From positions 1 to 16,089 of the forward strand of contig JAHFCY010000048.1 of assembly GCA_023249255.1 (NCBI GenBank): a stretch of 16,089 nucleotides of DNA, read 5' to 3'. Of the stretch, positions 1 through 15,846 are shown piece by piece. This DNA comes from Candidatus Lindowiibacteriota bacterium. GTDB lineage: Bacteria; Lindowbacteria; 2-12-FULL-62-27. The translations under genes were made by a program, and so were the position numbers. The notes under the pieces were generated by a model that had not been told where the DNA came from, searched no databases, and saw only the letters and a program-made list of their open reading frames with translations. How positions within the stretch are numbered: position 1 is the stretch's first letter; each line of letters opens with the position of its first letter.

Positions 1-1223
1 TCCGGTGAACGAACCTCGAAAACAATCTCGGCATAGTGTTTCTCACCGAGCCTGGCCAATTCTTTTTCAAATTCTTCTTTCTCCCGGTCAGTTCCGAAAT
101 CGATGAAACTACCAGCGGTCTCTTTCCGGATTCGTCGACACAATGATTCCTCCATCTCGTCCGATAAGGGAACAACATGCAACATGTCATTCTTCCCCAT
201 GAGGCCGGAACAAATCGAGGGCGCAAGGGCGCGATGTGCGACTGCCAGGGATTCCGTACCGTCCGATCGCACGAGAGCGTCCAGAATGGTCAACACGTCG
301 AAGATTGGCAGTCGTTCCGACAACAGATCCTGAAAAAGAGCATGGATGCGGTCGAGTCCGAATCGTTCCATCGCCCAGGTAACCATCATCTCATCCTCCG
401 CCTTGGCTTTATCAAGGAGCTTTTGCGTCTGGTCCATCGACAATAATACCGCCGCGTGATGGACCAGAAATTCATACATGTGTCCGAGCACCACCGTGAC
501 CGGATCCAAAATATAGTAACCGGATTTCTCGGCAAGCTCCCGCTGTTCAGGCTTGATCCATACAGACGGGGAATGTCTGTCAGGATCAAGGCACGGAATC
601 CCGTCTATCTCATGATCGATGTCCTTGGTTCTGATGGCCAATACCCGGTCGGGGTAGAGAATGCCGGATTCGTTTGGCCTGCCTCTAAGGATAAAAGCGT
701 ATTCTTGGGCCGCAAGGTTCAAGTCATCACGTATGCGGACAGGCGGGAGGAGGACTCCGAGGTTGGAAGCCATCGACGTGCGCACAACATCGCATAGATG
801 GACAAATGCCTCATCCCCGGAAAACTCGGCCCTGACGAGATCGATCAGCCCATATCCGATTTTCAGTTCTATGGTTGTGACAATTTGCGGGTCGCAATCC
901 TTGTAAAAATATGTCCTGGAAGGACGATCGATCCTGTAGAAGACCGCCAATGCCGTAGCCACTGGCTCAAAATACTGGGGCGGGATTTCCTCTTCGACTC
1001 GGACATTTTCATACAGATTACGAGTGAGAACGTTGTCTTCGTAGAATGGTAATCCGATCTGCTTTGCGAGCCGAATCACATGCGCGCCATCCGGCCCTGA
1101 CCACTTTCCAATGACCCGAGGGGTCTGATCCTGATTGGGACGGTACGAAAGCGCGACAGCCATATCTGTCTCTGAAACAATAACAACGTCATAATCGTCT
1201 TTCGGTTGAATTTGTATGTTCAT
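1..1223 (-). CDS. Soluble FlhB-C/FlhA-C fusion protein (partial, C-terminus beyond the window)
   Basis: The frame is open for 407 codons from ATG 1223 to the window edge. Residues about 12-98 match the cytoplasmic domain of FlhB/YscU: MAVALSY (21-27), TPRVIGK, then LPFYEDNVLTRNLY (58-71) and EEEIPPQYFEPVATALAVFYR (77-97, seen as EEEIPP followed by a VATALA helix). Residues about 115-407 match the cytoplasmic domain of FlhA: IGYGLIDLV (122-130), LPPVRIRDDLNL (159-170), QEYAFILRG, LYPDRVLAI, GIPCLDPD, VWIKPEQ (221-227), ILDPVTVV, LLSERLPIFDVLTILDAL, then a final-subdomain-like tail. FlhA usually ends a few tens of residues later, so I expect about 440-450 residues in all. No membrane segment or signal peptide is present; the protein should be cytosolic. 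The FlhB autocleavage site NPTH is SETD here (17-20). GGAGG at 1229-1233, inside the end of the upstream gene, sets the start and implies translational coupling. The domain match is clear by eye; the function is unknown. Confidence 0.88.
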   Translation of the reverse strand, partial: MNIQIQPKDDYDVVIVSETDMAVALSYRPNQDQTPRVIGKWSGPDGAHVIRLAKQIGLPFYEDNVLTRNLYENVRVEEEIPPQYFEPVATALAVFYRIDRPSRTYFYKDCDPQIVTTIELKIGYGLIDLVRAEFSGDEAFVHLCDVVRTSMASNLGVLLPPVRIRDDLNLAAQEYAFILRGRPNESGILYPDRVLAIRTKDIDHEIDGIPCLDPDRHSPSVWIKPEQRELAEKSGYYILDPVTVVLGHMYEFLVHHAAVLLSMDQTQKLLDKAKAEDEMMVTWAMERFGLDRIHALFQDLLSERLPIFDVLTILDALVRSDGTESLAVAHRALAPSICSGLMGKNDMLHVVPLSDEMEESLCRRIRKETAGSFIDFGTDREKEEFEKELARLGEKHYAEIVFEVRSP

Positions 1224-1225
1224 CG

Positions 1226-2950
1226 TTACCTCCTCGACGCTTTGTCCAACAGCATGGACGAGTGTTGAATGGTCATTGCTTTCAAGTGGGAAACCATAAT
1301 TTCTACGGGATCGGCCACTGTGAATCCATTTTTGGTCGCGAGTTTCGCGTCCTTCGGCCTGATCCACAATGCCGCGGTGCCCGTTGTTGGCTCTTTTATG
1401 AACCACCCTGGAACGGGTTTCGGGTCACTGTCGGATTGCCGGGCCAGCAGGCGGTTCGGCATAATCTCAAACGACGCGATTTTGCAGTCTTTGATCAGGA
1501 TCTGGTATTCATTGGGGCTTAATGCCGACCAGTTTCTGATCCTGACTCTCGGCAAGCGAATTCTGCGGATCTTCAGCATTGATGTTCTTAATTCCCCGAT
1601 TTCATGGATTAGTTTGTGTCCCCGTTGCCCGATGACAGACAGAAGATTTTCGCCGAGCGCAATCTCCAGATCGTCTGGCAATGTCTGGATATCACCGTCG
1701 ACCGGCGCTTTCTCTCTATTTGAGGAGCCGATGGGGGTTTTCGGCTGGGATCCGTTTCCGCTCTTGTATCGTCCATTATGGGCAAGCACAGTTGCGACAT
1801 CTGAGTAATACTTTGGCGGAATCTTCCACCCGGTATAGACCTTGAAGAGGCCGCCCGCCAGCCGATCATTTTCTAAAATGGGTGTGCACTGACGCTTGAT
1901 GGTTTCCAAGACTCTCTGCACTGCCGGCCCCTCGATTTTGACGGTAACAACAGGCGCATCGATCTTGTCACCATCGTAGGCCAGTCCAATCAGCATACTT
2001 TTTTTGGAGTCGGTTATGGCGGCATTCATGACAAGCGGTGACTCCGGGACGATGTCCCAGAGTCGTCCCTGCCTCGCGAGCGTCCGAAGCCTTTGTTGAA
2101 TTGCGGGCCTGCCTGCCCCATAAAGAGATTTCAGTGTTTTTTCGGCCCCTTTATGCTCGATCATCACGCTCCGAACGAATCGATGAAACCTTCCGGGACC
2201 CAGACCGTTGAGATAGGTGACCGCTACTCGTGAGCTTTCATATAGCAGGTATGACGCTCCTTTTTTGCGAAAACGCCAAAAACATTTCTTTGCAATAAGC
2301 CGAAGACGATCGTTAAACTCCGTCGTCATGACGCATTGATTCCTTTGATAGGACTCGTGGGTACGTCGATACTTCAGTTTCTCCCATTCTTCCTGCACCC
2401 AGCAGGCCAAGCCCTCAGAGAGCCAGTTTGGATAATTATGGCCCGCCTTATGCCCCCAAAAACAATGGGCCAGTTCATGGACCGCGGTGTTTTTGTCAGA
2501 ATAGTTTTTCCAGTGTACGGGATGAATATTCATGTATACGATGGGGCTGGATACAATCACGCGAGCTTCCGACGACTCGGATTTATTATCCTCCTTCGCC
2601 AGAGGCCTTGCCCACGCCGGAAAAACGGATTCCGGCACCTGCCATTTTGCGACGAAAAGCCGGATTTTAGGCGGGATCGGCCAGCGGTAGCTGTGAAACC
2701 ACCGGGTTATAAATAGCATGGCTTCGAAAAAGTTGTTTAAAAGGTCTGGGGGAACCTCCCTCAGGCTCGGTTGCCTATATACCTCAACGGGTGGTCGCAG
2801 GGAGGAAACGAATGTCCCGTCCCGGACGTAATATTCGGGTACCCTGTTTTGTTTACAGAATTTTCGCCACTTCCGGGTGTTTGGTAGAATCCGGACATAT
2901 TTTCTGGAACTCATATGTTGATAGCGCTCAGACCGTAAGTTGTTCCTCAT
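1226..2950 (-). CDS. Zinc metallopeptidase fused to FlhB-C-like and truncated FlhA-C-like domains
   Basis: A 574-residue cytosolic protein. Residues about 1-300 are a gluzincin (peptidase MA-type) domain: HELAH at 158-162 supplies two zinc-binding histidines and the catalytic glutamate, and WLSEGLACW (176-184) supplies the third ligand E179. Residues about 305-397 are an FlhB-C-like domain (MLIGLAYD 319-326, APVVTVK, ILENDRLAGGLF 358-369, IPPKYYSDVATVLA 377-390). A polar linker (about 398-425) follows. Residues about 426-574 are an FlhA-C-like domain: LPRVRIRNW (466-474), NEYQILIKD (480-488), MPNRLLA, LWIRPKDA (528-535), VADPVEIMVSHL. It stops where FlhA would continue into its last subdomains. 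The aligned NPTH autocleavage position reads SKKS (315-318). AAGGA six bases before ATG 2950 supports this start. The stop lies two bases before the next gene, whose product repeats the FlhB-C/FlhA-C arrangement. Metallopeptidase and export-gate calls are sequence matches; the substrate is unknown. Confidence 0.88.
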   Translation of the reverse strand: MRNNLRSERYQHMSSRKYVRILPNTRKWRKFCKQNRVPEYYVRDGTFVSSLRPPVEVYRQPSLREVPPDLLNNFFEAMLFITRWFHSYRWPIPPKIRLFVAKWQVPESVFPAWARPLAKEDNKSESSEARVIVSSPIVYMNIHPVHWKNYSDKNTAVHELAHCFWGHKAGHNYPNWLSEGLACWVQEEWEKLKYRRTHESYQRNQCVMTTEFNDRLRLIAKKCFWRFRKKGASYLLYESSRVAVTYLNGLGPGRFHRFVRSVMIEHKGAEKTLKSLYGAGRPAIQQRLRTLARQGRLWDIVPESPLVMNAAITDSKKSMLIGLAYDGDKIDAPVVTVKIEGPAVQRVLETIKRQCTPILENDRLAGGLFKVYTGWKIPPKYYSDVATVLAHNGRYKSGNGSQPKTPIGSSNREKAPVDGDIQTLPDDLEIALGENLLSVIGQRGHKLIHEIGELRTSMLKIRRIRLPRVRIRNWSALSPNEYQILIKDCKIASFEIMPNRLLARQSDSDPKPVPGWFIKEPTTGTAALWIRPKDAKLATKNGFTVADPVEIMVSHLKAMTIQHSSMLLDKASRR

Positions 2951-3223: not shown

Positions 3224-3439
3224 TCAGTCATAAATTTCGGCCAGATCGTCGGTCAGACCCTTGGCCAATTTGAGGATGTCCCTTTTGTCTGCCGGCTTTG
3301 AATCTATTGAAAGACTCTTGAGGATGTCGATCACATCTTGCCTATCCTTTGCCATCAATCTCTGGGTCCGCAGACTCTTCCACTCGGCGGCAGTAACTTT
3401 GCCCACAAGTTCCTTCGGAAGACCCTTGTTCATATTCAT
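3224..3439 (-). CDS. Small helical protein, unknown function (71 aa)
   Basis: I place the start at ATG 3439 rather than at an earlier ATG at 3496, because it makes an ATGA overlap with the stop of the 222-residue gene and is preceded by AAGGGTGG, a usable ribosome binding site; the earlier start would overlap the upstream gene by about 60 bases. The product is polar and probably mostly helical (VTAAEWKSLRTQRLM, then alternating acidic and lysine-rich helices to DDLAEIYD). I recognise no domain. The ATGA overlap implies coupled translation and equal output with the 222-residue protein, so the two may form a complex. Position in the operon links it to the FlhB/FlhA-type fusions. Confidence 0.62.
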   Translation of the reverse strand: MNMNKGLPKELVGKVTAAEWKSLRTQRLMAKDRQDVIDILKSLSIDSKPADKRDILKLAKGLTDDLAEIYD

Positions 3440-4104
3440 TCCACCCTTCGCGTCCGATTCCGCGCGAACGCGTCCTTTGCGGTGCGTATCGCCCAATCAA
3501 CAAATGTGCAGTTGAAACATTCAATGACGTCGTCCGCGTCAATTTCCTTTGCCCTATTCTTAGCCGCTTCAAAATAGCGGGCGTCTTCAAAAGTGTATAA
3601 GAGTTCGGCCAGTGCCTCTTGATTGCGCTTGACGATGTCTCCGGGTCGAGCGAGGGAATATTCGCTGATATCGATCATCAGCCGGATCAGTTCCTCGACC
3701 GTATCCGGAGGAACGCGCCGTTGAACTTGTTGGACTTTCACGCCAACGGCTGCCGAGCGGATCATCTGAAAAAGGCCGTACCAGAACATACCGTCCTCAT
3801 AAAGTTCGTGCTTCAGAAAATAGTCCCGGTGCTTGCTCACAAGTTCCAGGCCTTCCCGGGCGAGCGTTAAAAGTGCAGCGAAAAGTTTTGCCTCCGGCCG
3901 GTGGACGGCATGGAAGTGCATTTCCTCGCCTTTGGGATTGTATTGCTTTTCGAGTCTCCGGAGCTTGGAGTGCACGACGGCGAAATCCTTCACAACCGGA
4001 TTTCCCGCCCCTCTCCGGTTTATGTGCGCTTCGGACAGATTTTTTACGTTTTTCCCGCGCGGCCTCTTTTTCGTTACTCGTTTTGCCCCCGGGCCGCGCT
4101 TCAT
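3436..4104 (-). CDS. Helical protein of unknown function (222 aa)
   Basis: Unrecognised. The first 35 residues are basic and probably disordered (KRVTKKRPRGK). Residues about 40-60 look like a charged helix or short coiled coil. The rest is a run of predicted helices containing HFHAVHRPEAK (63-73) and several aromatic residues (FWYGLF). No membrane segment stands out. Two late cysteines (C-x2-C in CFNC) are too few for a zinc site on their own. The start ATG 4104 overlaps the stop of the ribbon-helix-helix gene as ATGA, and its own stop overlaps the next start the same way, so translation of three genes is chained. Being second in an operon behind a DNA-binding protein could suggest a partner of that protein, but its role is not evident. 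Confidence 0.72.
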   Translation of the reverse strand: MKRGPGAKRVTKKRPRGKNVKNLSEAHINRRGAGNPVVKDFAVVHSKLRRLEKQYNPKGEEMHFHAVHRPEAKLFAALLTLAREGLELVSKHRDYFLKHELYEDGMFWYGLFQMIRSAAVGVKVQQVQRRVPPDTVEELIRLMIDISEYSLARPGDIVKRNQEALAELLYTFEDARYFEAAKNRAKEIDADDVIECFNCTFVDWAIRTAKDAFARNRTRRVE

Positions 4105-4538: not shown

Positions 4539-5453
4539 CTAAAATCTATTCTCCGGAACTTTTAGATAGCAGTCGGGCCATCCTCTAGCCCTACAGCGTT
4601 TTTTAAATGGGATGTCCCATTTGCTTAACGAGAGATCCAATACCTTTTGGAGTCTGTCGGACTCACGGACAAACCAGATTAAAATTGCCGATGCGGCCTC
4701 AACGAGCAACACAGCTTGCTGAAGATAAGCAAATGCGGGTTCCTGATCTGTACCACGATTGTCGTTGGTAACGACACTAACTTCATTCCAAAAAGATATC
4801 AGGAGCGCTTCCGCGGCTTCCAGCGTATCCAACGCAAAAGTTTGCTCAACTCCTTCCGGCGAAACAAAAATCCACCAAAGGGGCTTCCTCTTTTTGAAAT
4901 GATCAACCGATCGTGTATGAAATTCGGTTGTATTGCCAACGTAAAGTCCCTCCGATAATCGCAGAAAATATACTCCACGGCGCTTTGCAAGAGACTTGCC
5001 TTCGGGCCTCTGCTTCCCTAAATAAACGCGCAATCTTGGAACAGAAGGGTTGCGCAGTGTGATCACAAATTCTTTATAGGTCCTCTTTTTGCCCGATTTG
5101 GGTGATTCCAACGAGTAGATTGGATCCCATGATAGCTGTCGAACAATATTATGAGGCGGAAGATACAGTAAGCGCCAGTTCTTGTCCTCATCTGTCCAGC
5201 CCTTTTCTTCCGGGCGGGGTTCGGTATTTCTTTCCGACAAGAGAGGGGGTCTGGCTTTACGTAGATTTTGAATTAAAACATGAGGCGCTCCGCCGCTGAT
5301 AGTAGATAATCCGAGTTCTTTTCGGGCGGCCTGAACTTGATTTTTAACCAAGTCCTCGACTTTGGGTTGTTTCCGGGCAATCAGTCTTTCCCAGGCTAGG
5401 ATTCTCAAGAAGACAGCGTTAAGAGGGTCGTCGTAAGTCAGAGGCAGAGCCAT
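4539..5453 (-). CDS. GIY-YIG-fold nuclease family protein
   Basis: A 304-residue protein. The nuclease core is at about 158-216: GVYFL (160-164) stands for the GIY motif, LYVG (170-173) for YIG, then TTEFHTRSVDHF supplies the conserved arginine R181 and histidine H185, and LEAAEALLI (211-219) supplies the glutamate expected to bind the metal (E212 or E215). GIY-YIG domains cut DNA and occur in homing endonucleases, restriction enzymes and UvrC. The first 150 residues are unrecognised. Residues about 240-262 are a hydrophobic helix (AYLQQAVLLVEAASAILIW) that could be a buried helix or a weak membrane segment. ATG 5453 follows the stop of the 336-residue gene by one base, so the pair is almost certainly co-translated. 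The core motifs are degenerate but in the right order and spacing. It may be an effector nuclease of the adjacent helicase/PLD cassette. Confidence 0.72.
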   Translation of the reverse strand: MALPLTYDDPLNAVFLRILAWERLIARKQPKVEDLVKNQVQAARKELGLSTISGGAPHVLIQNLRKARPPLLSERNTEPRPEEKGWTDEDKNWRLLYLPPHNIVRQLSWDPIYSLESPKSGKKRTYKEFVITLRNPSVPRLRVYLGKQRPEGKSLAKRRGVYFLRLSEGLYVGNTTEFHTRSVDHFKKRKPLWWIFVSPEGVEQTFALDTLEAAEALLISFWNEVSVVTNDNRGTDQEPAFAYLQQAVLLVEAASAILIWFVRESDRLQKVLDLSLSKWDIPFKKRCRARGWPDCYLKVPENRF

Positions 5454-6668: not shown

Positions 6669-9600
6669 TCATACGACGTTCAATCGAACGCGCAGATCTT
6701 CCATCATGGATGCAGGGAGAGTGATAAATGCCCAGCCATTTTCTCGGCCTTCATCATCTTTGCCCGATTCAGTCTGACCTTCGGCATGGTCGGGCGCATG
6801 ATCGCCGCCCGTCAAAACTTCAAATGTCTGTGCCCTCACACGCAATTCCTCGTATATCCGTTCGTCATAAGTTCCTGCAAGGTAGGGAATCCCTACTTCC
6901 AAAAAGGATTGAGCGTGGCCGCCATTCTTAGTCTCGGCATCTCGCTCACGAAACGCTTTAGAGCCGATGCGATCCGCCCTGCCTGTCCTCTGCTCAAGGG
7001 ACGCAGGGTTCCACGGGAGATCATAATGCACGACATAGCGGCAATAACGATGAAGATCTATGCCTTCTTGCCCGACCTGAGTGCAAATGAGAATTTCCGG
7101 GACCAGGGGCGTATTGAACGCGGAGAATATTCGATTTCGCTGTTTGGTGTTTCCCTCCACAAGTGAAATCAAGGACTCATCATGGAGCATCGTCGAATCA
7201 ATGATGGCATAACGGCTTTTATCTTTGTCTTGAACCGTCCCCGACGAACCCTTATAATCTTCCGCAAATACAACAAGTCGGTGAAAAAATGACTCCGTTT
7301 GATTGGGAAGAGGAGCCATGATTCTGTCGGTCAGCAGTTCGCCCCATGATTCCTCGCCTCTTTCCGATTTCTCCGGCAACAGTCGGACGAGCGTTGATTC
7401 GCGTAGAACCGCTCTACGGAAAGCCGCAAAAAGATGCAGACGGTCTTCCAAAGAGACATCCTGATCTTTCGGACTCAACTTCCAAAGGCAACGATGTAGA
7501 GCAAGTATTTCCGGGGTTCGGGTCGCAACGGTCTTCATAGGGTCATTCCCAAGCCATAGATTCGGTGCGAGGGCGATACTCTCAAGGATGCCGCGTCGAT
7601 CTGATTTGCCGGCCTTGGATTCCCGATCTCTTATTGCCCTGGCCAGAGTTTCTATTTCGTCTTCAGAGACATCATCCCTCACGACAGGATAAACATGCTG
7701 GACACCCTTTCTCTGATTGAAAAGTACATCATCCCTCTGTTCTTCAGATTCCCCGACTCTGTCCAGTCCGTAGGGTCTGCCGATCCAATTCGGATCCGCA
7801 ATCTGACGCAGAAGGGTGATAAACTCCCTATCAGACTTGCATGTGGCAAGAAGGCGTTTTGCAAGGATGTGCTCGAATGCTCTATGTAAAAATACGCGGT
7901 CGAGCTGTTCCTTCCTCAGGTCAACGCCAAACTTCAGGGCTGCTAATGCAATTGATCTAAAATCCTCTGGCTTTACGCCAAAATCCTCGACGCGTACTGG
8001 CAACGCATGTCCATCAGCCATACCCGCAAGAAATCTGGACCAGATGACACGGTCTAACACGAGAGGCATGAGGTCCCGCTCACGCCCGCTCATCCTGGAT
8101 CGTAAATTTTTCAGGGCATTTTCTGACCCTAGGATACGTTGGCGTTTTGAGCTGATGATATGTTCAATCTCGTCTCGAAGAATATCCCGAAGGCGACGGG
8201 CTGTATGAACTCTAAAGCAAAAAATGAGATATTTTTCACCCCTCTCCCACATCCGGATGATCTGATCAACGAGGGCTTTGACCTTCGGATGCGCCGGGTC
8301 CCTTCGCTCGCTGACCATTCCGCGCAAGATGGAAAAATAGAATCGGGCATTGCCGTCAGACATGGCACGACGGAGGGATGCGCCTTCGTTGCTGTATGTC
8401 AGCGTCGAATACGTACCGGTCAGGGATGTTCCAAGAGCCGTTTTTCCCCGGCCGTGTTTTAATTCGGATACAGCGCGCATGAGTACATAATGCGGTAGTT
8501 CGGGTTCACCTTCGACATTCAATCCTGCCGACACGTGTAAAAACGACCTATCCGGGCGCTTTTCGACGTCGTCAGATGACGCTGAAAATTCAGATCCGAC
8601 CCGAACCAGACGGTGTGCCGTGGTTCTCCGGTGCCGGATGACCAGCTTCCCCAGTTCGTCACTCAAGTCCGCATTATATCCGTATAACAGGAGGGCTTGC
8701 ATAAAAAACCCACGGACTGCGGGGTCGAGTCCGGTCACCGGAATTTTTGCGTGGGTTTGAACAAACTCATCGTCGATCACATCAGGTTCTTTGGATTGCT
8801 TCATGATCAAGTCTCGCGCGCGACGCAGGCTCTCTGATTCCCATATATCTTCGAGATCTTCCGTGCGAATGCGCCTCGGCAATCGCGCCCACGCTTTGGC
8901 AAAATGTCTGCTTGCTTGCTCAGACCGTTTTAAAACAACCTCGATCGTGTTTTCCCGTATCTTTTTAAGTCTCTCTTGCCGCTCCGTTGGGATTCCGAGA
9001 TGGTCACCGACCTTTAGAATCTCAAGAATCTCGCTGGGCCGTAGCTGGAAAGGCGTGGCGGTGAGGAGCAGTATTCGGCGTGACTTCGGTGCGATGTAAC
9101 GCGCAAATGTGTCGTAAGCATTGGCGCCACCTCTTGGGCCGTTCTTCCAATTGTGCGCTTCATCGACAATAACCAGGGGAAAGCTTTGGCGAATGAATTC
9201 AAAACAAATGCGAACATACAACTCGCTCAGTTTTGCCGCAAATTTGGGGAAATCCACATCTCGATATTGTCGAAATGGTGTCCCGAGGTCCTTGGCCCAC
9301 TCAAGCGTTTCTTCCATCATCTTTCGGGCGTCTTCATCCCTGCTTGACTCAATCTGCCCGAGCAATGTCTTGAATTCCTCCTCATAAAAATGCAGATACT
9401 GAAGTTCGGCTTCGTAGTATCGGCCTACGTCATTATCTGTTCTTGGCCAACCTTCCGGCGCGCCTCGAAGAAGAACGTCCCGGTGCTCTATAGGGAAACG
9501 TTTCCCCCAGTAGCGGCAGAGAGCGGAAAACATGAATTGATGTTTTGTGCTGCGGTGTTTGAGTTTGTTGGATTCAAGTCGGTTTGTCTTGATGACCAGA

Positions 9601-10037
9601 ACGGTGGCGCCTTTCGGGGATCGCAACTGACGGACGAGTTCATCTATCCGATCGCATCTGGCGGCCTCGAACCATTTTGCATCCCCATTTACGCATCGGC
9701 CGACAAATTCGGATGTCTCGCTGACCCATTTCCTGTATAGCGCATCATTATCCGGCGTTACGACGAGGATCTTTTGATAACAGCCCCCGAGTTCTGAGGC
9801 TCGTCCCTCACGCATCGACTCAAGGACAGAAAAAGCCGACGCCAAAGCCACGAACGTCTTCCCCATCCCAACCTCATCAGCCAGAATCTGCAATTCCATC
9901 CGATGCCGCTCGGACGATGTGTAGAGTCGTTCAAGTATCGCATCCACCGTTTGTGTCTGGCGTTTCTTGTCTTCCGGATTGCTCATGCGTACCTTGTCCT
10001 TGCCGAGATCGATCAATTTCGAAAGACGAATCGTCAT
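6669..10037 (-). CDS. SNF2-like superfamily 2 helicase/ATPase of a probable defence cassette
   Basis: A 1122-residue helicase. Motifs in order: Walker A DEVGMGKT (54-61), KILVVTPDNDALYRKW (motif Ia region, about 89-104), DEAH (292-295), LLTATPF (324-330), LIFCFRVHTARRL (motif IV region), CTQVGQEGIDL (motif V, about 985-995) and QRTGRADRIG (motif VI, 1016-1025). A long charged helical insertion (about 150-285) lies between motifs Ia and II, and another large one lies between the two ATPase lobes. This matches SNF2/RapA-like remodelling helicases, found in defence systems such as DISARM and Dpd; I cannot place it in a named system. The longest start ATG 10037 lies four bases after the phospholipase D gene and has a poor ribosome binding site; ATG 9986 (Met18), with AAGGT in front, may be the real one. 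It probably translocates on DNA for the PLD-type partner. Confidence 0.9.
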   Translation of the reverse strand: MTIRLSKLIDLGKDKVRMSNPEDKKRQTQTVDAILERLYTSSERHRMELQILADEVGMGKTFVALASAFSVLESMREGRASELGGCYQKILVVTPDNDALYRKWVSETSEFVGRCVNGDAKWFEAARCDRIDELVRQLRSPKGATVLVIKTNRLESNKLKHRSTKHQFMFSALCRYWGKRFPIEHRDVLLRGAPEGWPRTDNDVGRYYEAELQYLHFYEEEFKTLLGQIESSRDEDARKMMEETLEWAKDLGTPFRQYRDVDFPKFAAKLSELYVRICFEFIRQSFPLVIVDEAHNWKNGPRGGANAYDTFARYIAPKSRRILLLTATPFQLRPSEILEILKVGDHLGIPTERQERLKKIRENTIEVVLKRSEQASRHFAKAWARLPRRIRTEDLEDIWESESLRRARDLIMKQSKEPDVIDDEFVQTHAKIPVTGLDPAVRGFFMQALLLYGYNADLSDELGKLVIRHRRTTAHRLVRVGSEFSASSDDVEKRPDRSFLHVSAGLNVEGEPELPHYVLMRAVSELKHGRGKTALGTSLTGTYSTLTYSNEGASLRRAMSDGNARFYFSILRGMVSERRDPAHPKVKALVDQIIRMWERGEKYLIFCFRVHTARRLRDILRDEIEHIISSKRQRILGSENALKNLRSRMSGRERDLMPLVLDRVIWSRFLAGMADGHALPVRVEDFGVKPEDFRSIALAALKFGVDLRKEQLDRVFLHRAFEHILAKRLLATCKSDREFITLLRQIADPNWIGRPYGLDRVGESEEQRDDVLFNQRKGVQHVYPVVRDDVSEDEIETLARAIRDRESKAGKSDRRGILESIALAPNLWLGNDPMKTVATRTPEILALHRCLWKLSPKDQDVSLEDRLHLFAAFRRAVLRESTLVRLLPEKSERGEESWGELLTDRIMAPLPNQTESFFHRLVVFAEDYKGSSGTVQDKDKSRYAIIDSTMLHDESLISLVEGNTKQRNRIFSAFNTPLVPEILICTQVGQEGIDLHRYCRYVVHYDLPWNPASLEQRTGRADRIGSKAFRERDAETKNGGHAQSFLEVGIPYLAGTYDERIYEELRVRAQTFEVLTGGDHAPDHAEGQTESGKDDEGRENGWAFITLPASMMEDLRVRLNVV

Positions 10038-10041
10038 CGCG

Positions 10042-12132
10042 CTATGACGCCAGACACTTTCGCGTCTGTCGGGTAATTTTTTTTGCGTAGGTCACCATAG
10101 TCTCCGCTCCTGATCCATCGAACACGTTTCTGGACAGGCGGTTCAGTTCTTCTATTGCCCGTATAAACAATTTCTTCTCTTCTTTTGTCCGGCATTCCCT
10201 CTTTCTCAATGAATACGCCCGGGCTACGGCATACTGAAGTTCAAGAAGCTGAAACGCGCCTGCCGTGCGCCCGCGTTTGCATTCCCTCACCTTTGTCTCT
10301 ATTTGACGGCCGAGTTCGACAGGGCTGATCGGACCCAATAGAGATCGTCTGAGCGTTCGCTCATCCGGAAGTACGGATACAATCTCCTGAATAATTCCCG
10401 GTAGTGCCTCCACAAATTCTCGAATCTGGTAGGTCTGGATTTTACCCGTGTCGACTTCAGAACGAAGAGGGGCCTCCATCACTCCGGCAGTTTTATCGGC
10501 CTCGTGCGGCTCCGGAAACAAATCCTCCCACCGGAGTCTGCCTTGATAATAGGCAAGAAGGGCGTCTTCTCCGGGAAACAGTACGTTCGGCGCTACAGGC
10601 AAGCGGTCTTTGGCGTGTTCGGTGACATTCACTGGAAATGGAGTGCCGGCAGGAAACGGCAGCCAGCATACCAGCACTTCCCTGTCTGTTAGAATACGCT
10701 GAAGAGAATCAGGCGACAACAGCACAATGGCACGGCATGCAGAACGTCCGCGTGCCTTTTTAAATTCACACAGCGCCTCGGACATGCCGCCATCCAAGCG
10801 CAAAGATATGGCCCAACTCGCCGGCGCCGATACGGCACGCCATAAGACACATAGATTAAGTCGGTCGGCGGCTTTGGGATCGGGGATCAATTCAATTCGT
10901 TCTATAAATCCCGGCCACGGTTTGGATTCCACGTCATCCATTGAATATTGCAGCTCACCGGCGGGGATCTTGCCGAGTTCCACTTCTTTCCCTGCCGTCT
11001 CCGGGATGAGAATGTCAAAAGAAGTGGGACTTTTGTCAGAGACAACAATAACCCCGGCCTCCAGATTGGCTTGATGGGCGGGAATATCCCAACCCCAACC
11101 ACGACGCGTGCAGTTGGCCGATCCAAGATAAACCATGGCGGTTTTGTTTCCACGAACGATGATCATTTTCGAATGCAGACTTCGCACGGCGAGAGTCGAA
11201 TCCGTGATCCGAAGATGGATCTTTTCGATTTCAGAGAGATGTGGATTCACCGCATGTGCAGTGATCTTCAATTTATTCCTGCCGACGGCCCACTCCCCGA
11301 TAACCGGCGGAAGAGAGGGCAACTGATCGTTGTCCCGGCGTACCGCGCAATAGAGTCGTATCCGCAAGCCGGAGGACGGTTCAACTAAGTCCTTAAAAGA
11401 TTCTATCAGTCCGTCAAGCGCGGACGCATCAGTTTGCGACCAGAATGGAGAGACAATATCGATGGATTGTATCCGGTCACTCCCAGGCCATGCGTCCGAC
11501 AGTTGACGCGGCAACGAGTGATCTACGCCGCACCATGCGATTTTGAATGCGGGACGGTTGGGCTGTGTTTTCTTCATCCACTCTTGCAAAACATCCGATG
11601 TAGCCTGCATTGACTTGGCCATTTCTTCTGTCATCGCGCTTCCGATGATCCGTTTCCATGTATCTATCGTTTCCACAATTAATTTTCCGCCGTCGGTGTT
11701 TTTCGGCGTACAATCGATGGCGGTTGCACATTCATAATTGCGGCGAGATCCATGATCAGTCAGGTTTGCAGATGTGACTATGAGTCGGACCCGATGTTCG
11801 TACGTAAGCAGATAGAGTTTGGCGTGCTGCTTACCGGAACCGGATGGCCGCGTAAATGGGATCATGTCTACACGCAAGGTAGGACGCTCCCGATAATTTT
11901 GTCCGTCAATCACGACGCCAACGTAGGCGTCCTGAAGGTGGCGTTCAAGCGCAATCCTCGATGACCAGCCTTTGATCTGCCATGCGCCCATGTTGAAAAT
12001 CGTTGGCAGAAAATCAATTTCAAAAAATGTGGCATTAAATTCATAGGTCATGCCGCAGAACGACCGAATCCGCCCTGCCTTGTCCGGCGGTCTGACAAAT
12101 TCAAGAAATCTCTGAAGCGGTTTCCCGGTCAT
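10042..12132 (-). CDS. Phospholipase D-superfamily protein with two HxK motifs, probable nuclease
   Basis: A 696-residue protein with two PLD half-sites: HAKLYLL (H103, K105) followed by TSANLTDHG (N123), and HSKMIIV (H320, K322) followed by GSANCTRRGWG (N340). The paired HxK-(x)n-N layout resembles Tdp1-type and nuclease-type PLD proteins rather than the strict HKD form, because the aspartate is not obvious. The C-terminal 300 residues are unrecognised, with a conserved-looking RLRWEDLFPEP segment. No signal peptide or membrane segment is visible, so a cytosolic DNA or nucleotide phosphodiesterase is likely. ATG 12132 overlaps the stop of the 502-residue gene as ATGA, and the helicase follows after four bases, so the three are translated together. 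PLD plus helicase pairs are a recurrent defence theme (DrmC in DISARM is one example). Confidence 0.82.
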   Translation of the reverse strand: MTGKPLQRFLEFVRPPDKAGRIRSFCGMTYEFNATFFEIDFLPTIFNMGAWQIKGWSSRIALERHLQDAYVGVVIDGQNYRERPTLRVDMIPFTRPSGSGKQHAKLYLLTYEHRVRLIVTSANLTDHGSRRNYECATAIDCTPKNTDGGKLIVETIDTWKRIIGSAMTEEMAKSMQATSDVLQEWMKKTQPNRPAFKIAWCGVDHSLPRQLSDAWPGSDRIQSIDIVSPFWSQTDASALDGLIESFKDLVEPSSGLRIRLYCAVRRDNDQLPSLPPVIGEWAVGRNKLKITAHAVNPHLSEIEKIHLRITDSTLAVRSLHSKMIIVRGNKTAMVYLGSANCTRRGWGWDIPAHQANLEAGVIVVSDKSPTSFDILIPETAGKEVELGKIPAGELQYSMDDVESKPWPGFIERIELIPDPKAADRLNLCVLWRAVSAPASWAISLRLDGGMSEALCEFKKARGRSACRAIVLLSPDSLQRILTDREVLVCWLPFPAGTPFPVNVTEHAKDRLPVAPNVLFPGEDALLAYYQGRLRWEDLFPEPHEADKTAGVMEAPLRSEVDTGKIQTYQIREFVEALPGIIQEIVSVLPDERTLRRSLLGPISPVELGRQIETKVRECKRGRTAGAFQLLELQYAVARAYSLRKRECRTKEEKKLFIRAIEELNRLSRNVFDGSGAETMVTYAKKITRQTRKCLAS

Positions 12133-13637
12133 GGTTTGACGTTGAGTGCCCGGAGGAATCGAAGAGCGTTATACAGACGGTACGGATGCGGCCCAATTTC
12201 CGCCGCATCGCTTACTTCTCTGCTCAATCCGCCCGGCCTGCTGAAAGTCAGACGATAGAATCCGCCTTCTTCAACAACCCATGCTGATTTTCTTCTGCCC
12301 TTGTCAAACTTCCCATTCTGGACATCCTTGTGGCGGGCGATGACCGACCTGACAAATTCGCCGGTGTTGTCGGCAGTCAAAGCGCTTGCCCGAACGGCAT
12401 CAACGGCATCCTTGATCGAATCATGTGTCGTCTTTGGGAGGGATGATTCTCCTGAAAGAATCTTCTCCAATCGAACGCACGATGTTTTGATTTCACCTGC
12501 TGCACGTCGGACAATTCTGTCCTTCTGAATTTGATCTGCCGGAAGACCTCCCGGGGTCCTCTTGACAAGCCACAGAATTCTCTCGAACGCGAGGCTCAAG
12601 ACACGGTAAACAGTTTCATATGCGGGTATGATTCTCAGTGCGGCGCCGACGGCCGTGGAAATCTCGTCTGGAATCTTTCTGTACCGCTTTCCGCTCCGGA
12701 TGATCCGGTCCATTTCTTGCATCGTCTTAAGTTCTGCGTCAACCACTCCAGTTTCTTCGAGCACGGACATGGATTCACGTAGAAGGCAGAATGTACAAGC
12801 TCGGTACGTCCCCTCCGTCCCCTGCAACATCCCCTCCCTGAGCAGTTCCTGCTCATGTGACAACATCCGCGCGGCCGGATGGGCCTTCTCGCCCCATCGA
12901 ATTAAGCGGGCAACGCTGACCGGTTCTCCGTAAACAATGGCCTTCTTTACTTGAGATCCGCCAGTGGACTCGATGAACATTTCTCCCAAGGGAACCCCAA
13001 GATCAGGTGTCAATCGCCATTCGCCTGAAAACAACAGGCCCGCGGATTCCATGAGACTGCGATACGTGCCCAATCCCCCCGTGAGACGCTGTTGCCGGAG
13101 AAATTGAAATTCGAGATCGGCCAGATGAGTGCTACCGGATTCTAACAGGAGCTTGAGCTGATGCTCGGCATAAGTGATGCCGCGAATCGATCCCCAATCT
13201 CCGGATGTCGCTTCAGGATGGGTATTCCAGAAAAGTACGGACGAAACCGCCCAGAGCCTTTCCATGCGCTGGATAATCTCCAGAACTTTCTCCTCCGATT
13301 TCGCCGTGTGAGGTTCATCACCGACCACCGCTTGAGCCAGAGTTATTCCCCCGGCAATCATGGAAAGATATCGGGGAGTTTCTGTGATTGTCGTCATCCC
13401 CGGTAAAAGAACATCCGCCAGTGCGACATACCCCCGCTCAAACCCGAGAGGGTCAACGCTGGTGCCCGGTAGATCGGATGGGTCGTACAGCGTCGTGAAC
13501 ATGGTGACGCCACCGAAACGCAAAGGTTCGAAGGCCAAAGCCTTCGTGGATGTCATGTCACTCATTGTTTCGCGTTTACCTCCCTTTATATGTGAACTCG
13601 ACTCCTTTTCGATCGGTAGAATAAATGGGTCGCACAT
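12129..13637 (-). CDS. First gene of the helicase/PLD cassette, possibly DUF6361-like
   Basis: Up to 502 residues. After the start, FGGVTMFTTLYDPSDLPG and LADVLLPGMTTITETPRYL give a pattern that resembles my memory of DUF6361 proteins (a residue-poor domain with a 'LFPGTSTIQTRARY' type segment) which occur beside helicases and PLD proteins; this link is tentative. The middle is helical, with a C-x2-C (ACTFC, about residue 282-286) that has no obvious partner cysteines. The C-terminus is a compact segment with GGFYRLTF. The longest frame starts at ATG 13637 with AAGGTG upstream. ATG 13565 (Met25) is equally possible: the conserved-looking part begins soon after it and GGGAGG lies upstream, though 13 bases away. 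The stop overlaps the PLD start. It may be a sensor or scaffold of the system. Confidence 0.72.
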   Translation of the reverse strand: MCDPFILPIEKESSSHIKGGKRETMSDMTSTKALAFEPLRFGGVTMFTTLYDPSDLPGTSVDPLGFERGYVALADVLLPGMTTITETPRYLSMIAGGITLAQAVVGDEPHTAKSEEKVLEIIQRMERLWAVSSVLFWNTHPEATSGDWGSIRGITYAEHQLKLLLESGSTHLADLEFQFLRQQRLTGGLGTYRSLMESAGLLFSGEWRLTPDLGVPLGEMFIESTGGSQVKKAIVYGEPVSVARLIRWGEKAHPAARMLSHEQELLREGMLQGTEGTYRACTFCLLRESMSVLEETGVVDAELKTMQEMDRIIRSGKRYRKIPDEISTAVGAALRIIPAYETVYRVLSLAFERILWLVKRTPGGLPADQIQKDRIVRRAAGEIKTSCVRLEKILSGESSLPKTTHDSIKDAVDAVRASALTADNTGEFVRSVIARHKDVQNGKFDKGRRKSAWVVEEGGFYRLTFSRPGGLSREVSDAAEIGPHPYRLYNALRFLRALNVKP

Positions 13638-13865: not shown

Positions 13866-14282
13866 ATGGCGTTGCACATTTTCAAGGCAGCCGGGGGAGT
13901 CGGGCCGATTGCGGATGATGCGGGGCAATCCGGAGCGGCGTTTTTTGATGATGTGACGTTCAACGGGACGACGGGGGAAGTGCGGAATCTTGGGGTGTTC
14001 GTCCGGAATGCGGATGCGACAAAACAGTATCAGCAGATTCAGATATCGATCGACGACACGGATCCGGTTCTGGATCCGACGAATTTTCGGATGGCGACGA
14101 GTCTTGCGGGGCTGGACACGGCGACTCCGGGGTCTCCGCTTTCCCTGCCAAATATTCCAGCGGCCAATCCGTCACCGGTGGATGTGGCGATTTTTCTTCG
14201 ATGCACCGTCGGGCCGGGTACAACGGTGGGCGCGTATGTCGGGATCAAGTTTGTGATCAATGCTGTAGAACTGCCGGCGTAG
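13866..14282 (+). CDS. Probable phage or mobile-element structural protein (138 aa)
   Basis: A 138-residue, largely beta protein, rich in small and hydroxylated residues and in asparagine, with segments such as GEVRNLGVFVRN, DTDPVLDPTNF and a glycine-rich end GTTVGAYVGIKFVIN. No signal peptide, transmembrane segment or catalytic motif is visible. The fold and composition resemble small head-decoration or tail-associated proteins, but I do not recognise the family. It is preceded by a very strong ribosome binding site and is followed one base later by the 520-residue gene, then by a terminase, so a virion role is the best reading. It reads opposite to all genes on its left. Confidence 0.6.
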   Translation: MALHIFKAAGGVGPIADDAGQSGAAFFDDVTFNGTTGEVRNLGVFVRNADATKQYQQIQISIDDTDPVLDPTNFRMATSLAGLDTATPGSPLSLPNIPAANPSPVDVAIFLRCTVGPGTTVGAYVGIKFVINAVELPA

Positions 14283-14283
14283 G

Positions 14284-15846
14284 ATGGTGACCGCCGCCGA
14301 GCTTCATCCGGACGGCGATTACGCCGCCGGGCGGAACAACCTCTTTGTTGCGGTCTTTTCGGATCAGACTTTTTATGGATTGGGCGGGTCGCGCCATGCT
14401 TGGACGGGTGTTCTCAAGCGCATCCATGGGAATGTCGGAGGCTCGGGATTGAGTATCGGGATATTGCCGCCGCCGGGGCCAAGCAATATTATTACGGACG
14501 GCGGGTTCAACAGTCTTGGACCCGGGACCGATATTGGATTCAGCGGATTTCAGAACACTCCGATTCCACCGTGGTCTTACAAGTTCATCATCAAGTTTGC
14601 GATTCCCACCACCGGCGGGGAGTACGTCGGGCGGTTCGAGTTTGATTTTGGCAATACGACGGACATTGCTTTCTACTGGGTTCGGGCGCCGTCGACGACG
14701 GCCGGGCAGGGATCAGCGACGGATGATTTTCCGGAATGGTACAACCTCGACGTCGTCTCGGTGCAGTACGGGGTTCCGTTTGATTTCAACCACGGTGTCA
14801 TGGCGATCGACGCGCCTCACGTATTTGCCATCCGGCAGGTCAAGACGAAGTCCAGGATCGTTGTTCAGAGGGACGTGTCCGCCGCCGCCGGCGTGCTCAT
14901 CCGCATTTTCAATTCCTTTGTGAGGGTCGATTCCCGAATTGTCGTCGGGCGAACGGTCAGGATACGTGCCGGGAGTAATGTCCGGGTCGGCAACCGTGTG
15001 ACCCTTCGGGCGAGTGTCCGAGTTGCGATCCATCATGTGATCCGACAGGCCAGTGATTGTCTGGTCCAAGTGATCAACGCCCGCGTGTCGGCTGAAACAT
15101 TTATCCTCGTCGGATCTTCGATTGCATTCCGCTATGATTGCCGGATCATCGTCTATCGGCCGCAGGCGGTGGCGGCGCAGAGCAACATCATTGTCGGATA
15201 CATCAATGTCGAGAATCTCAAGAACGATATGCAGATCATTTTCGGGGTCGACACGGAACTTGTGACCAAAACGCTCGTCACGATTCCAGCCGTCAACGGG
15301 GCGGCGTTCAGCCAGAATCTGGAACACGTCCTGATCGAAACAGGCTCGGAGACGGTTCGGCGGCTGAACTTTCCGGGCGCGCTGTCCTCCTGGAGCGCGG
15401 CGGGGTTGTACGAGATCGATTACGTGCTCGGCCGATTTCGGTGGATTGGCGCCAACCCCGAACCGGTCGAATTGACATACCGGCACAGCAGTACCCGGAT
15501 CACGGACCAGAACATCATCTCGTCGATCATCAAGGCGTCGTCGTTCATCCAGGAGCGGCTGAAGCCTGCCGCGGCGATCGGCGATCCACGATTTCGGCGC
15601 GGTGCGGAGGAGCTGGCGATGTCGTTTCTGCTGGACGCGGCGATTTGGAATATGACGCAAACGATATCGGCGGGCGCGGCGGCCGGGACGGGATCCAGGC
15701 GGATCGATCTCATGCAAAACCAGAAACGGGAGTTCGAGCGGCGGGCGTATGAAACGCTGGGGCCGTTCATTCACGAGCCGGTTCCGGGAACGCCCGTACG
15801 TGCGGCGCTGGCGCGGCCGAAATCGATCCGGGTGTACGGAGAGTGA
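14284..15846 (+). CDS. Probable virion protein with a beta-repeat region (520 aa)
   Basis: A 520-residue protein. Residues about 1-180 are beta-rich and glycine/proline-rich (ILPPPGPSNIITDGG). Residues about 188-305 form an approximate repeat of about 12-14 residues built on S-R-I-V-V-x-R or variants (KSRIVVQRDV, DSRIVVGRTV, VRVGNRVTLRA, DCRIIVYRP, SNIIVGY), suggesting a beta-solenoid or fibre shaft. Residues about 320-400 are another beta domain. The last 120 residues are helical (AEELAMSFLLDAAIWNM, then QKREFERRAYETLGPF). The start ATG 14284 lies one base after the previous stop; its own ribosome binding site is weak, so translation is probably coupled. It could be a tail spike, fibre or baseplate-like protein; its place before a terminase is unusual for a tail gene. 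Family not recognised. Confidence 0.65.
   Translation: MVTAAELHPDGDYAAGRNNLFVAVFSDQTFYGLGGSRHAWTGVLKRIHGNVGGSGLSIGILPPPGPSNIITDGGFNSLGPGTDIGFSGFQNTPIPPWSYKFIIKFAIPTTGGEYVGRFEFDFGNTTDIAFYWVRAPSTTAGQGSATDDFPEWYNLDVVSVQYGVPFDFNHGVMAIDAPHVFAIRQVKTKSRIVVQRDVSAAAGVLIRIFNSFVRVDSRIVVGRTVRIRAGSNVRVGNRVTLRASVRVAIHHVIRQASDCLVQVINARVSAETFILVGSSIAFRYDCRIIVYRPQAVAAQSNIIVGYINVENLKNDMQIIFGVDTELVTKTLVTIPAVNGAAFSQNLEHVLIETGSETVRRLNFPGALSSWSAAGLYEIDYVLGRFRWIGANPEPVELTYRHSSTRITDQNIISSIIKASSFIQERLKPAAAIGDPRFRRGAEELAMSFLLDAAIWNMTQTISAGAAAGTGSRRIDLMQNQKREFERRAYETLGPFIHEPVPGTPVRAALARPKSIRVYGE

Follow-up and report, generated by a model that had tools for sequence, protein, structure and literature searches.

The gene at positions 1226-2950 on the minus strand of the window, the window being the whole stretch of 16,089 nucleotides that was analysed, is confirmed by sequence comparisons as encoding a predicted cytosolic protein of 574 amino acids, in which a gluzincin (a peptidase of the MA type) is fused to an FlhB-C domain and to the D1-D2 portion only of FlhA-C. 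A 19-residue hydropathy scan of the whole protein detected no membrane segment, and its peak value was 0.93, compared with 3.05 in canonical FlhA. We give about even credence to the interpretation that this protein belongs to a cytosolic protease/unfoldase family in which FlhB and FlhA domains derived from the export gate serve as docking or assembly modules. An earlier note, made from the letters alone, had proposed the three-domain anatomy of a peptidase, an FlhB-C domain and a shortened FlhA-C domain. This reading was right according to Pfam, NCBIfam, PDB sequences, Foldseek and, for the peptidase, its relatives, and the domain limits proposed there are approximately correct. What the note overlooked is the second soluble FlhB-C/FlhA-C gene that follows, the membership in a family with exchangeable heads, and the most likely derivation of the domains from the flhB-flhA pair of the lineage itself, all described below.

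The FlhA-C part of the fusion (residues 416-571; 1238-1705, minus strand) consists of D1-D2, with D3-D4 absent, and the truncation falls at a domain boundary. The Pfam profile FHIPEP (FlhA) matches residues 415-570 with an E-value of 2.3e-23. The match covers profile positions 322-475 of 657, and its start at 322 implies that the N-terminal multi-pass membrane domain of FlhA is absent from the fusion. The FlhB-C part (residues 280-392; 1775-2113, minus strand) is matched by Bac_export_2 (FlhB) over residues 280-390 with an E-value of 6.4e-9. Both matches exceed the curated Pfam cut-offs, and the profile searches on which the earlier note had staked its claim are therefore significant for FlhA and FlhB alike. 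In addition, NCBIfam returned FlhA at 1.6e-25 and three FlhB-type models at approximately 1e-6, and a sequence search of the PDB returned FlhA-C at 2.8e-14 and FlhB-C at 9e-7. An AlphaFold model built from an alignment of four sequences had a mean pLDDT of 48 and was locally usable for FlhB-C and FlhA D2 only. In a Foldseek search, this model recovered FlhA-C structures at 1e-7 and YscU, EscU and FlhB-C structures at 1e-5 with a target TM of 0.7-0.8, and the FlhB-C fold is thus identified by both profile and structure (6.4e-9 and 1e-5). The structural check suggested earlier was borne out for the FlhB-C and FlhA-C folds but yielded no confident model of the peptidase.

The peptidase MA-like domain occupies approximately residues 60-278 (2117-2773, minus strand). 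It contains a predicted zinc-binding and catalytic motif, HELAH (residues 158-162; 2465-2479, minus strand), which is kept in the paralogue described below and in Peptidase_MA_2 relatives, and a downstream WLSEG (residues 176-180; 2411-2425, minus strand), in which Glu179 is the putative third zinc ligand. The fusion therefore has the HExxH and the downstream glutamate in WLxEG that mark Peptidase_MA_2 gluzincins, and the motif is intact in both paralogues. The direct match to the Peptidase_MA_2 profile is weak (E = 0.11; 12.7-14.4 bits) and below the Pfam gathering cut-off of 32.4, and it sits exactly on HELAH...WLSEG. However, two proteins linked by a genome search to residues of approximately 150-260 align over the peptidase domain, match Peptidase_MA_2 with 62 and 92 bits (E = 7e-17 and 5e-26), and have the H, E, H, W, E and G in common with the fusion. 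We therefore consider the peptidase assignment to be confirmed indirectly, by transitivity through these relatives and not by a direct profile match. In the AlphaFold model, the pLDDT of the peptidase region was about 24-53, and the peptidase modelled alone without an alignment reached 35.5. Because AlphaFold could not model the peptidase, its predicted fold rests on sequence relatives.

A second copy of the fusion occurs in the same genome on another contig (C84), with 84% amino acid identity. At the DNA level, the two copies are 88% identical over 1241-2911, and the likeness stops at the limits of the gene. Because it is confined in this way, the second copy represents a diverged duplicate and not a shared assembly error, and this independent copy also rules out an assembly chimera. 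The start codon of the fusion at 2950 is accompanied by AAGGA, a plausible Shine-Dalgarno sequence, but the likeness of the paralogue begins only at residue 14-15. Between the two copies, the dN/dS ratio (NG86) was approximately 0.16 for residues 15-130, approximately 0.18 for the peptidase core, 0.37 for FlhB-C and 0.25 for FlhA. The inter-domain linker (residues 393-416, of which 393-415 correspond to 1706-1774 on the minus strand) is poorly conserved in the paralogue, with only 46% identity over residues 393-416. All three folded parts are thus under purifying selection, which is strongest on the peptidase half, and the linker is free. A chance occurrence of the motifs is ruled out by the E-values together with this selection.

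Gene 2 of the operon (3-1223, minus strand; partial at the contig end) begins 2 nt past the stop codon of the fusion, whose last bases include AGGAGG; judged by this arrangement, gene 2 is translationally coupled to the fusion gene. It encodes a soluble FlhB-C domain (residues 12-94) and an FlhA-C domain that extends from residue 115 to at least 381, reaching into D3-D4, where the reading frame runs off the contig. A scan of the genome contigs with an alignment of gene 2 found one relative, on MFPR01000035 of Lindowbacteria. Two further genes of the window have homologues near the FlhB-FlhA locus of that contig, namely, a small reading frame of 90 amino acids (3227-3496, minus strand; 51%) and a protein of 222 amino acids (3439-4104, minus strand; 48%). 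Just upstream of the fusion operon, a three-gene cluster (6669-13637, minus strand) encodes a helicase matching ZacC (3.6e-36), a PLD protein matching ZacB (4.5e-17) and a weak match to ZacA (0.003), and it also matches DrmD and DrmC of DISARM; it is a probable defence system. The PADLOC defence models had no match to the fusion protein. Elsewhere in the window, a protein of 304 amino acids (4539-5453, minus strand) has a C-terminal part that resembles GIY-YIG by eye and a weak PADLOC match to PDC-S14 (9e-4), and two adjacent reading frames (138 and 520 amino acids; 13866-15846, plus strand) without clear matches have the look of phage structural proteins.

Our sample of the lineage, taken at the phylum level, comprises three genomes, including Candidatus Lindowbacteria RIFCSPLOWO2_12_FULL_62_27 (G001), and all three have a canonical flagellar gate (FliP, FlhA and FlhB). 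In G001, contig 35 (MFPR01000035.1) carries an orthologue of gene 2 with 59% identity that is extended by DUF6745. Directly upstream of it lies a gene for a protein of 854 amino acids (L036:12062-14626; MFPR01000035.1 / L060:5607-8168) that joins a ClpX core (E = 1.9e-62) to FlhA-C (E = 1.7e-48); its FlhB-C-like stretch gives a weak match that is not significant on its own. This sibling keeps Walker A, Walker B, the GYHG pore loop, the IGF loop and GARG, and is without the N-terminal zinc domain (the profile match begins at 43). In ClpX, the IGF loop docks ClpP, and many clients are recognised through the zinc domain and adaptors. A ClpX-like unfoldase fused to FlhA-C is apparently undescribed. 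Judged from gene order and domain content, the enzyme head is swapped at the same operon position: the present genome has a peptidase there, and the sister genus has an unfoldase resembling ClpX. The detached gate domains form a small family with exchangeable heads (peptidase, ClpX-like and DUF6745). Further members are FlhA-C proteins with a twin-arginine-like start, one per genus (L009:6735-8036 and L037:9227-10441); in G001, this protein is followed by FlhB-C, which is the reverse order. They begin SRRRFLQ and SRRGFFQ, which would imply that a domain usually confined to the cytoplasm is exported. In the third genome (G002, 81% complete), the flagellar gate is present and no soluble member is among the matches listed. 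The ClpX sibling is preceded by genes for a TPR protein and a regulator-like protein. A conserved gene pair (L007:4587-7452, L037:1669-4219 and L075:9367-11893), which encodes an HTH/regulator-like protein and a "PGQIWAL" protein and often precedes a gene with a Lon-like domain, is rare in the genome, yet it adjoins two gate-derived loci.

A maximum-likelihood tree built from 39 FlhA-C sequences places the soluble proteins of this lineage and its canonical FlhA in one group with a support of 92/96; the tree has long branches, and this key node is just under the strict 95 mark. A foreign or contaminant origin is rejected by this placement. The canonical flhB of these genomes is followed by its neighbour, the canonical flhA. 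Duplication of this pair and removal of the membrane parts in between would explain the order of FlhB-C and FlhA-C in the fusion, and from the observed domain content and tree we infer that such a pair, duplicated within a flagellated lineage, most likely gave rise to the soluble domains by shedding its membrane-spanning parts.

A search for the FlhA family in 290 genomes found at least three genomes outside the lineage with an FlhA-C lacking the membrane part. One of them (G099), which has no FliP and no canonical FlhA, carries a TPR-FlhA-C protein and an FlhA-C protein in tandem beside a HEFGH protein. This tandem (L056:1-11490) follows three related proteins, one with HEFGH...ELFAD, and a fragment of an FlhA-C-like gene occurs in a sister genome (L076). 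In two others (G265 and G129), a soluble SctV-like FlhA-C is fused to NadC, a quinolinate phosphoribosyltransferase (L057:8754-11210 and L058:1157-3523; two species of one genus). Because the sequences from these three genomes group with SctV-like FlhA, they represent a separate origin, and a single origin of all soluble FlhA-C proteins is not supported. Searches of 386 genomes, viral contigs, phages and plasmids found no further protein that joins peptidase, FlhB and FlhA parts. The few phage and plasmid matches concern the FlhA part only and are mostly annotated flhA, and a viral or plasmid gene is therefore rejected. The earlier note had called the fusion unfamiliar and had proposed a search for the same domain order; in the 386 genomes, this architecture is confined to the source genome, and no paper on it was found. 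Literature searches on such fusions, on soluble FlhA paralogues and on DUF6745 returned nothing relevant. The components are known, and a soluble gate-derived module on proteolytic heads is undescribed in the literature searched, which took in few subscription papers.

The detached domains have lost features that are central to the gate. In Salmonella, the D1/D2 dimple of FlhA-C (Asp456, Phe459 and Thr490) docks chaperone-substrate complexes (PMC8166844). The corresponding triad is (E/D)(F/Y)T in all of the flagellar FlhA sequences aligned and N-N-L in three SctV-like sequences. The fusion has E-T-S (E520, T523 and S554) and its paralogue has E-S-S, gene 2 encodes D-R-G, and the ClpX sibling carries E-S-K; one soluble member, the twin-arginine-like FlhA-C of G000, retains E-Y-T. 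Moreover, none of the soluble members examined has the NPTH motif, of which N-P is present in canonical FlhB; the fusion has DSKK at this place, and its siblings have SETD- or GGTG-type sequences. Because the fusion has no transmembrane part, no NPTH, a dimple altered from F/Y to T, and D1-D2 only, it cannot be a component of the gate. The earlier note had suggested that the peptidase may be aimed at export substrates, chaperones or the gate itself. The altered dimple and the loss of NPTH weaken the simple reading that the fusion binds chaperone-substrate complexes or switches specificity, and the docking role of the ancestor may have been lost. If the fusion binds clients, it would do so in a modified way.

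We propose that the soluble modules were joined to protein-processing enzymes, an MA zinc peptidase in this genome and, in the sister genus, an unfoldase of the ClpX kind, and that the fusion would work in the cytosol with the coupled gene-2 protein. FlhA-C forms a nonameric ring in the export gate. The absence of D3-D4 makes ring membership of the fusion doubtful; considering the tandem pairs and this known ring, its D1-D2 would probably form a mixed assembly with the more complete FlhA-C of gene 2. The FlhB/FlhA part may then bring selected proteins to the enzyme, which the peptidase would cleave and the ClpX-like head would unfold. Candidate clients are flagellar export components or something unrelated; because the dimple is altered, the clients are unlikely to be held as FlgN-, FliS- or FliT-substrate complexes are, which weakens, without removing, the case for a flagellar client.

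A more far-reaching reading, to which we give somewhat less than even weight, is a new kind of targeted-proteolysis system in which the membrane-free gate domains act as a soluble substrate receptor for interchangeable heads, either a zinc peptidase or a ClpX-like AAA+ unfoldase. A flagellum-specific quality control or switch, in which a gate mimic would capture export substrates, chaperones or subunits of the gate for destruction by the head and so adjust flagellar assembly, would agree with the canonical gate in all three genomes, with the derivation of the domains from the lineage's own FlhA, and with the retention of D1-D2, the dimple-bearing part in Salmonella (PMC8166844). However, the dimple that is invariant in flagellar FlhA has become E-T-S, D-R-G or E-S-K in most soluble members, NPTH has been lost, the fusion locus lies outside the flagellar gene cluster, and G002 combines a flagellar gate with no soluble member among the matches listed; we regard this explanation as rather unlikely.

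Slightly less probable still is a conflict or defence module, in which the gate domains serve merely as the scaffold of a system directed against phages or other bacteria, with a toxic or regulated peptidase or unfoldase head. The case for a defence role comes solely from gene neighbourhoods and from G099, which is not flagellated: the Zac/DISARM-like helicase-PLD cluster lies in the window, the C84 paralogue adjoins a Fic-like protein and a Hel308-like helicase, transposase and nuclease-like genes occur at the G001 locus, and G099 has its soluble FlhA-C proteins beside an HExxH protein. The exchange of heads also fits such a module. However, the fusion itself matches no defence family, no copies were found in phages, plasmids or viral contigs, the neighbourhoods differ between loci, and the FlhA-C of G099 groups with SctV-like proteins of separate origin. 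A passive remnant, a plain peptidase with a decaying FlhB/FlhA tail, might account for the missing D3-D4, the long branches of the tree and the restriction of the exact form to one of the 386 genomes, but it is very improbable, considering that the FlhB and FlhA parts show dN/dS ratios of 0.25-0.37 while the linker has drifted to 46% identity, that the truncation ends at a domain boundary, and that the sister proteins are 59% conserved between genera.

Work on FlhA-C and FlhB-C has, to our knowledge, dealt with them as membrane-tethered parts of the export gate, along with small FlhB-like proteins. A lineage in which both domains are detached, maintained by selection and paired with a peptidase or a ClpX-like unfoldase would show that docking domains of the gate are reusable as stand-alone modules. 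It would also provide a simple soluble system for asking which properties of FlhA and FlhB need the membrane, and it points to an evolutionary connection between the export of proteins and their degradation.

Several known systems resemble parts of this family. Peptidase_MA_2 (PF13485) proteins have HExxH...WLxEG and the overall alignment in common with the fusion; the relatives examined appear to open with a hydrophobic or signal segment, whereas the fusion is cytosolic and joined to gate domains. ClpX has an intact core with the IGF loop, as does the sibling on MFPR01000035, but the sibling has FlhA-C, together with a stretch that weakly resembles FlhB-C, and is without the zinc domain. The FliR-FlhB fusion (NF009411) is likewise an FlhB fusion, but it is a membrane gate protein, and the membrane parts are absent here. 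Small FlhB-like proteins (TIGR00789, of the FlhX/YlqH type) have a soluble FlhB-C-like domain, as in the fusion; however, they stand alone (the model has 84 positions), whereas the FlhB-C of the fusion lies between two domains and scores 29 bits against a cut-off of 117. FlhB/SctU has the FlhB-C fold and sequence in common with the fusion (E = 6e-9), which differs by the absence of the transmembrane domain and by the change of the NPTH autocleavage motif to DSKK. Finally, the C-terminal domain of FlhA/SctV (FHIPEP) is homologous to the D1-D2 of the fusion (E = 1e-23), and the gene-2 partner has a fuller FlhA-C; compared with FlhA/SctV, the fusion is without the transmembrane domain and D3-D4, its dimple is altered, and a peptidase is attached.
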